Shown here in pieces: positions 31,890 to 35,383 of a DNA stretch of 64,000 nucleotides (the first letter of the stretch is position 1; every line of letters begins with the position of its first letter). A program made the translations under genes and the position numbers. The notes under the pieces were generated by a model, which was not told the origin of the DNA, did not search any database, and saw only the letters and a program-made list of their open reading frames with translations. Source of the DNA: Bacillota bacterium (GTDB taxonomy: Bacteria > Bacillota > Sulfobacillia > JAJZYS01 > JAJYTV01); the NCBI GenBank assembly GCA_021799275.1, contig JAJZAT010000014.1:1-64000 (forward strand), read 5' to 3'.

Positions 31890-33643
<1,754 letters not shown>

Positions 33644-33647
<4 letters not shown>

Positions 33648-33976
33648 CGGATCGCCGTGGGAATCAGGAGATCGACGACGCCGATGACGAACGCAGCGAG
33701 CAGGGCGCCGATCGCCGAGACGTGCATGCCTGGCACGACGAACTGCACAAGCCAGATCACGACCGCCGATACCAGGAAGCCGACGATGCCCCGGCCGTAC
33801 GTCGAGTTGCGCCGACCCAGCATCAGCTCGATCAGGTAGCTCACCGCCGCGATCACAAGCGCGGCCACGAGCGCCTCTCCGAACGTCAGGTGGCTGAACC
33901 CCGGCACGATGTAGCCGACCAGCATCAGGACGATCGCCGCGACGATAAATCGGACGACGGTGCCCATAAAGCGCAT
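33644..33976 (-). CDS. Four-helix membrane protein of the phage_holin_4_2 (YvlD) family
   Basis: 110 residues with four hydrophobic helices separated by short loops. The pattern LMLVGYIVPGFSHLTFGEALVAAL and VVPGMHVSAIGALLAAFVIGV matches the family once named mycobacterial-type holin. These are chromosomal membrane proteins in many Bacillota, in envelope-stress operons in some; a lytic role is not implied. The ATG follows GGAGGTG at 6 nt. It converges with aspS. Confidence 0.85.
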
Positions 33977-34079: not shown

Positions 34080-34107
34080 TTGAACGGCCCGAGGGCGGTG
34101 CTATACT
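34080..34107 (+). promoter_or_regulatory. Sigma-A promoter of the ltaE leader RNA
   Basis: TTGAAC (34080-34085), a 16-bp spacer and TATACT (34102-34107), each five of six to consensus. The predicted start is near 34114, about 250 nt before the ltaE start codon. Confidence 0.7.
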
Positions 34108-34113
34108 GACCAA

Positions 34114-34330
34114 CGCAGCACCCGACCATGTGCGACCCCTTATAAGCAGTTTTGAGCCAACACCAAAACTGCGGGAGCCAGGATTCTCGAGGCGGGAATG
34201 GCACGCCCCCATTGCGGGGAACCTCGATGTCCCGAGGCCGGCACCCACCTGCCTGAGGCAGGTTCAAAACGCGAGCGGGAACGGCATGGTGGGGTCTTCG
34301 GAACCTCCGCGCAAGCGGAGGTTCTTCGCT
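34114..34330 (+). ncRNA. Structured RNA between aspS and ltaE (6S-like RNA or cis-regulatory leader)
   Basis: A good promoter and a terminator bracket about 215 nt without a gene. The ends pair: ACCCGACCATG (34120-34130) with CATGGTGGGGT (34285-34295), 10 of 11 positions. Inside are a perfect 8-bp hairpin (GCAGTTTT 34146-34153 with AAAACTGC 34165-34172) and a 7-bp hairpin (ACCTGCC / GGCAGGT near 34247-34263). The 3' arm of the closing stem runs into GGGGTC-TTCG-GA(A)CC, which could form an alternative stem with the 5' half of the terminator. 6S RNA lies beside aspS in B. subtilis, as I recall, and has this long-hairpin shape. A switch controlling ltaE is equally open. Confidence 0.5.
34301..34330 (+). 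terminator. Terminator at the end of the leader RNA
   Basis: Perfect 10-bp stem GAACCTCCGC / GCGGAGGTTC with loop GCAA, followed by the pyrimidine-rich TTCGCTTTCCC. It lies 43 bp before the ltaE start, so ltaE needs read-through or antitermination unless it has its own promoter. Confidence 0.65.
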
Positions 34331-34366
34331 TTCCCTGGGCGAACTCCTTAGGCGGAGGGATCTCCT

Positions 34367-35383
34367 TTGATAGACTTGCGCAGCGACACCGTGACCAAAC
34401 CGACCGACGAAATGCGCGCCGCCATGGCTTCGGCCGAGGTCGGCGACGACGTCTGGGGCAACGACCCGACGGTCAACCGGCTCGAGACCGTGGCGGCCGA
34501 GTGGCTCGGCAAGGAGGCGGCGCTCTTCGTCCCGAGCGGCACCATGGGCAACCAGGTGGCTGTCATGACCCACTGCCGGCCAGGCGACGAGGTCCTGGTG
34601 GAAGCCGAGGCCCACATCTACTGGTACGAGGTCGGGGGCATCGCCCGCCTCGCCGGAGCGCAGCCCCGCACCATCCTCACGCCGGACGGCATCCTGACGC
34701 CGGATCTGGTCCGCAGCGCCGTGCGGGAGGAGAACATCCACTACCCGACGCCGCGCCTGCTGTGCCTCGAAAACACGCACAACCGCGCGGGCGGAAAAGT
34801 GCACCCGCTCGCGGAGTTCAGGGCCGTCACCGATCTGGCGCATAGCCTTGGGCTCAAGGTGCACCTGGACGGCGCACGCCTCGCGAACGCCTCGGTGGCC
34901 CAGGGAATCACGATGGCCGAGGCGGCGGTGGGGGCCGACAGCGTGATGTGCTGCCTCTCGAAGGGGCTCTGCGCGCCGGTGGGCTCCGTGCTGGCCGGTA
35001 CGCGCGACTTCATCGCGGAGGCGCGCAAGAACCGCAAGGTCCTGGGCGGCGGCATGCGGCAGGCGGGCATTCTGGCGGCGGCCGGCCTGATTTCCATTGA
35101 GAAGATGGTGGGACGGCTGCGTGAGGACCACCAACTCGCGAAGGATATCGCGGCGGTCCTGCAGGACGTGCCACATGTCACGTGCGATCTGACGAAGGTC
35201 GAGACCAACATGGTGCAGGTGGACCTCGACCGCCCCGCCGGACCTGTCGTCGACGCCCTTGCCCGCGAAGGCGTGCTCTGCGGCACGTCCGGTCCGACGC
35301 GGATTCGCCTCGTCACCCACCATGACGTGTCCGGCACCCGTCCTGCGGATGTCGCCAAGGCATTCAGCGTCGCCCTGGCCTGA
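34367..35383 (+). CDS. ltaE: Low-specificity L-threonine aldolase
   Basis: PLP enzyme that splits L-threonine (and allo-threonine) into glycine and acetaldehyde. The 338-residue protein starts [20 protein letters not shown], the family hallmark, from a TTG with GGAGG 9 nt upstream. The substrate- and PLP-binding parts are [21 protein letters not shown] and [10 protein letters not shown]. The PLP lysine lies in [18 protein letters not shown] structured, terminated leader RNA precedes it. A convergent selenoprotein gene follows, with one shared hairpin between them. Confidence 0.94.

Follow-up and report, generated by a model that had tools for sequence, protein, structure and literature searches.

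Known 6S RNAs and leader RNAs

Small RNAs of the widespread 6S kind resemble an open promoter and keep the main RNA polymerase parked. The known members (RF00013; SsrS; 6S-1 or BsrA in B. subtilis) form a rod consisting of a closing stem, a central bubble and an apical arm. Their genes carry a sigma-A/sigma-70 promoter and a 3' terminator of their own, and the RNAs bind the holoenzyme of the housekeeping RNA polymerase, serve as templates for pRNA and are abundant in stationary phase. The pRNA of B. subtilis 6S-1 has the sequence GUUCGGUCAAAACUA (PMC12005410), and a hairpin lies opposite the 5' bulge in the same RNA (PMC8414754). The hallmarks of a 6S pRNA are an upstream A, GG at positions 4/5 or 5/6 and AA at positions 9/10 (PMC8414754). 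Competing pairings of the collar/bubble kind are used in the pRNA-induced release of known 6S RNAs (PMC4227106; PMC12005410). The B. subtilis 6S RNA occupies a position between aspS and yrvM, according to a reference cited in PMC12005410, and in E. coli the 6S gene belongs to a processed dicistronic ssrS-ygfA (FAU1) transcript (PMC7641849). Attenuation riboswitches and T-box leaders have an arrangement of their own, in which a promoter, a structured RNA, a terminator-like hairpin and a metabolic gene follow one another.

Identity of the RNA

The window, the whole 64-kb stretch of DNA that was analyzed, comes from an uncultured Bacillota bacterium whose close relatives are metagenome-assembled Bacillota. 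The structured RNA encoded between aspS and ltaE is almost certainly the product of a single 6S RNA (ssrS) gene. This assignment is based on the fit of its sequence and structure to the 6S family and on covariation across the class. The Rfam covariance search with 6S models, which the preliminary description had called for, matched RF00013 to positions 34117-34299 (+) with a score of 69.7 bits (E 1.1e-11), the cut-off being 46.4. The alignment is full length, covering model positions 1-187 (187/187), and the score is modest beside those of other class members, which reach 111 bits. It is the sole gathering-level Rfam match in the window and the only 6S match in its own genome. The true 5' end is probably a few bases upstream of 34117, near 34112-34115. 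Four features that mark a 6S RNA are present: a full-length match above the gathering cut-off, a covarying rod, a pRNA template, and the gene's own promoter and 3' hairpin.

Counting its own, 56 of the 61 genomes searched gave a match to the 6S model, and in 55 of these the match exceeds the cut-off. Two genomes (G026 and G053) have two matches each, possibly reflecting a duplication of the 6S-1/6S-2 kind or mixed bins. A sub-threshold match of 28.5 bits in a further genome (G029:C1:122710-122811) lies 109 bp upstream of ltaE and, backed by this gene order, is probably a diverged 6S RNA.

The upstream neighbor aspS is shared with B. subtilis. In the window, hisS and aspS precede the 6S gene, with aspS at 31890-33647 (+; NF001750, 777 bits). 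Across the class, 40 of 51 loci have aspS ahead of the 6S gene in the same orientation; at the others it is either absent or outside the flanking sequence. The resemblance to B. subtilis that had been pointed out at this position extends to the same upstream neighbor at 40 loci. The downstream gene differs, ltaE here and yrvM there, as does the number of 6S copies, one here and two there. A gene for a 110-aa membrane protein of the Phage_holin_4_2 type is located between aspS and the 6S gene (33644-33976, -); family members retain it, as do some of the more distant members of the class (L045, L049 and L050).

Promoter, rod and covariation

A sigma-A-type promoter is located at 34080-34107 (+). 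It consists of TTGAAC (34080-34085), a 16-nt spacer and TATACT (34102-34107), with TG ahead of the TATACT. One such motif was found where 0.2 were expected in shuffles, and 8/8 family members examined have the extended -10 (TGCTATACT) preserved. The fold of the whole transcript has an energy of -103.2 kcal/mol, compared to -83.0 +/- 5.1 kcal/mol for shuffled sequences (z = -3.9), and 0/200 shuffles were as good. The closing stem, 34120-34130 with 34285-34295, has 10 of its 11 positions paired, the exception being a G34124-G34291 mismatch; in full, its 5' arm extends over 34120-34134 (+) and its 3' arm over 34282-34295 (+). Internal perfect hairpins had also been noted from the sequence. One, formed by 34146-34154 and 34164-34172, has 9 bp, and another, 34247-34254 with 34256-34263, has 8 bp as a string match, its innermost pairs being unable to close a 1-nt loop. 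Promoter, closing stem and internal hairpins hold as first described.

The rod was examined in an alignment of 51 class sequences made with MAFFT by sequence, not fitted to structure; its members had been collected with the 6S model, which favors sequences that pair. It has 22 invariant positions and a mean column identity of 60%. The closing stem is paired in 88.7% of the cells and 5 of its pairs are changed on both sides. Its covariation score is above that of all slid registers and was reached by 0/500 shuffles, controls that leave relatedness in place. A collar helix, formed by 34149-34158 (GUUUUGAGCC, +) and 34261-34270 (GGUUCAAAAC, +), is paired in 89.6% of the cells, and in 7 of its 10 pairs both sides are changed. 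Its score is likewise above the slid and the shuffled controls (0/500 reach it). In the apical arm (34173-34246, +) many pairs are changed on both sides, for example columns 66-158, 67-157, 77-151, 79-149 and 82-145. The consensus fold has 38 pairs, 22 of them with compensatory changes, and forms the 6S rod. The covariation test on orthologous leaders proposed earlier has given compensatory changes in the closing stem, the collar and the apical arm.

Central bubble and predicted pRNA

The putative pRNA template is at 34147-34161 (+), with the start opposite C34161. Copying from 34161 back to 34147 gives the predicted pRNA 5'-GUUGGCUCAAAACUG, with the first bases GUUGGCUC, which is identical to the B. 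subtilis 6S-1 pRNA at 12/15 positions. All the hallmarks are present: the template is flanked by A34162, and the pRNA has GG at 4/5 and AA at 9/10. Of 45 class members with a placeable start, 40 have the same hallmarks. With the RF00013 match, the covarying rod, these hallmarks and the aspS synteny, the suggestion of a 6S RNA, which the preliminary description had carried as its competing idea, is borne out. The window adds to the family a 6S RNA with a predicted pRNA from an uncultured Bacillota lineage.

Each side of the central bubble can fold on itself. The 5' side (34146-34172, +) can give a hairpin of 9 bp whose loop contains the pRNA start, and the 3' side (34247-34263, +) can give the hairpin ACCUGCCU/AGGCAGGU (columns 163-168 with 176-181), which like that of B. 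subtilis 6S-1 lies opposite the 5' bulge. The collar excludes both hairpins. In the energy minimum the two hairpins beat the collar by about 4 kcal/mol, and the 5' hairpin, extended by G+C pairs to 9 bp, has a probability of about 0.99 in the energy models. The potential for such a G+C-extended hairpin around the pRNA start sets the RNA apart from B. subtilis 6S-1. It is conserved in the family and partial in the class, where 65.8% of its cells are paired. In two class members (L051 and L053) the collar strand is replaced with compensatory changes; the 34146-34172 hairpin is perfect in the window.

By analogy with 6S RNAs already studied, the rod of roughly 185 nt would mimic an open promoter and, once growth has ceased, bind the sigma-A RNA polymerase holoenzyme. 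At outgrowth the polymerase would copy the short pRNA 5'-GUUGGCUCAAAACUG... from the central bubble and be released. The pRNA would disrupt the collar (34149-34158/34261-34270), whose freed 3' strand could then form the ACCUGCCU/AGGCAGGU hairpin. The predicted pRNA did not open the bubble hairpins in a simple cofold, so the refolding mechanism rests on the literature and not on the energy models. The hairpin at 34301-34324 may end the 6S transcript or mark its 3' end, and some readthrough past it may feed ltaE.

The terminator-like hairpin and ltaE

The terminator-like hairpin (34301-34324, +) is formed by 34301-34310 and 34315-34324. It has 10 perfect pairs and an energy of -20.7 kcal/mol, with a poor U-tract (TTCGCTTTCCC). 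Of the 10-bp terminator first placed 43 bp before the ltaE start codon, the pairs stand, while the gap to the TTG at 34367 is 42 nt and the U-tract is weak. The hairpin is kept in 8/8 family members, one of which (L043) has a compensatory change from A-T to G-C. Its sequence is family-specific; other class members have downstream hairpins unrelated to it or lack an obvious one. The hairpin is unique in the genome, and a repeated genomic element was rejected. Rfam matches to it (CRISPR-DR57, BSnc120, BjrC68 and Arrc08) are below cut-off and merely fit a perfect hairpin. A pairing between its 5' half and the ribosome-binding site of ltaE (34304-34315/34347-34358) was judged a trivial CCUCC/GGAGG complementarity because the flanking bases vary in relatives.

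The ltaE-like gene (34367-35383, +; TTG start) encodes a PLP-dependent aldolase (Pfam Beta_elim_lyase). The protein scores 431.8 bits with NF041359 (GntG family aldolase) and 316.8 bits with NF007825 (L-threonine aldolase, low-specificity), both over cut-off. Since the GntG-family model outscores the threonine aldolase model, the substrate may be other than threonine. In 44/44 genomes that have both genes on one contig (34117-35383 in the window and 43 relatives), ltaE is downstream of the 6S gene on the same strand. The distance lies between 62 bp and 29 kb, being within 4 kb in 41 genomes, within 1 kb in 31 and within 100 bp in 14.

This order raises the tentative possibility, one that falls somewhat short of an even chance, that 6S and ltaE share a transcript with 6S at its 5' end, ltaE being expressed by readthrough of a weak, leaky terminator and the 6S RNA being processed out. 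Such a transcript would add to the 6S assignment rather than replace it. The 42-nt gap is without a promoter match, the U-tract at the hairpin is weak and the same-strand order recurs in all 44 genomes. By analogy with the processed ssrS-ygfA transcript of E. coli (PMC7641849), readthrough into ltaE would be plausible. Against it stands the strong hairpin that separates the two genes. In many relatives the distance to ltaE amounts to hundreds of bases or to kilobases, which leaves space for other genes or promoters, and the 6S RNAs of lactic acid bacteria are described as monocistronic (PMC8414754).

In both the E. coli locus and this one, the 6S gene is followed by a same-strand gene linked to one-carbon metabolism. 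The downstream product is an aldolase (glycine/threonine) here and 5-formyltetrahydrofolate cyclo-ligase in E. coli, and co-transcription is putative here. It is rather unlikely, if conceivable, that 6S and the threonine-aldolase-like gene make up a conserved transcriptional unit in the class, an independent counterpart of the proteobacterial ssrS-ygfA. If true, the unit would link the parking of the polymerase with glycine/one-carbon metabolism. No mention of 6S RNA together with threonine aldolase was found in the literature searched. The recurrent 6S-ltaE order is a minor point, apparently unreported, and a small testable observation on genes that share a transcript with 6S RNA.

The riboswitch reading

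The preliminary description preferred a new riboswitch, in which the 3' arm of the closing stem would supply an antiterminator, and the choice between this and the terminator would control ltaE. The layout lends itself to this reading, with a structured RNA followed by a terminator-like hairpin and then a metabolic gene, and an alternative of 6 pairs can be drawn across a C(UUCG)G turn. The 3' arm can indeed be written as a partner of the 5' half of the terminator, in a duplex of about -10.5 kcal/mol, but this is far weaker than the terminator and negligible in the ensemble. No antiterminator pair exceeds a probability of about 1e-5, and a fold made to contain the antiterminator has -85.1 instead of -103.2 kcal/mol, a cost of about 18 kcal/mol. 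An attenuation leader has an antiterminator of stability similar to that of its terminator; the one drawn here has no such stability.

Closing stem and antiterminator do exclude one another in a formal sense, but this has no bearing here, since the closing stem is compatible with the terminator and occurs together with it. In the minimum-energy fold both are present, with probabilities of about 0.98-1.0 save at the G-G mismatch, and the closing stem persists in the fold of an RNA that ends in the terminator loop (34314). The comparative data also argue against control of ltaE by such a switch, the terminator sequence being limited to the family and the 6S-ltaE distance varying from 62 bp to several kb. 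The conserved core is the 6S core, without a separate ligand-binding core. That the RNA matches no known aptamer or T-box core was correctly observed: at Rfam gathering thresholds the window has neither, and 6S is the sole match.

A strong 6S covariance match together with an abundant discrete RNA had been named beforehand as decisive against the riboswitch; with the first of these found, at full length, the riboswitch retains next to no probability. A 6S gene upstream of ltaE is ordinary in kind, not a new riboswitch, and the identity is settled for a structured RNA that could pass as one. The real alternative pairings of this 6S RNA are those of the central bubble, not of the terminator.
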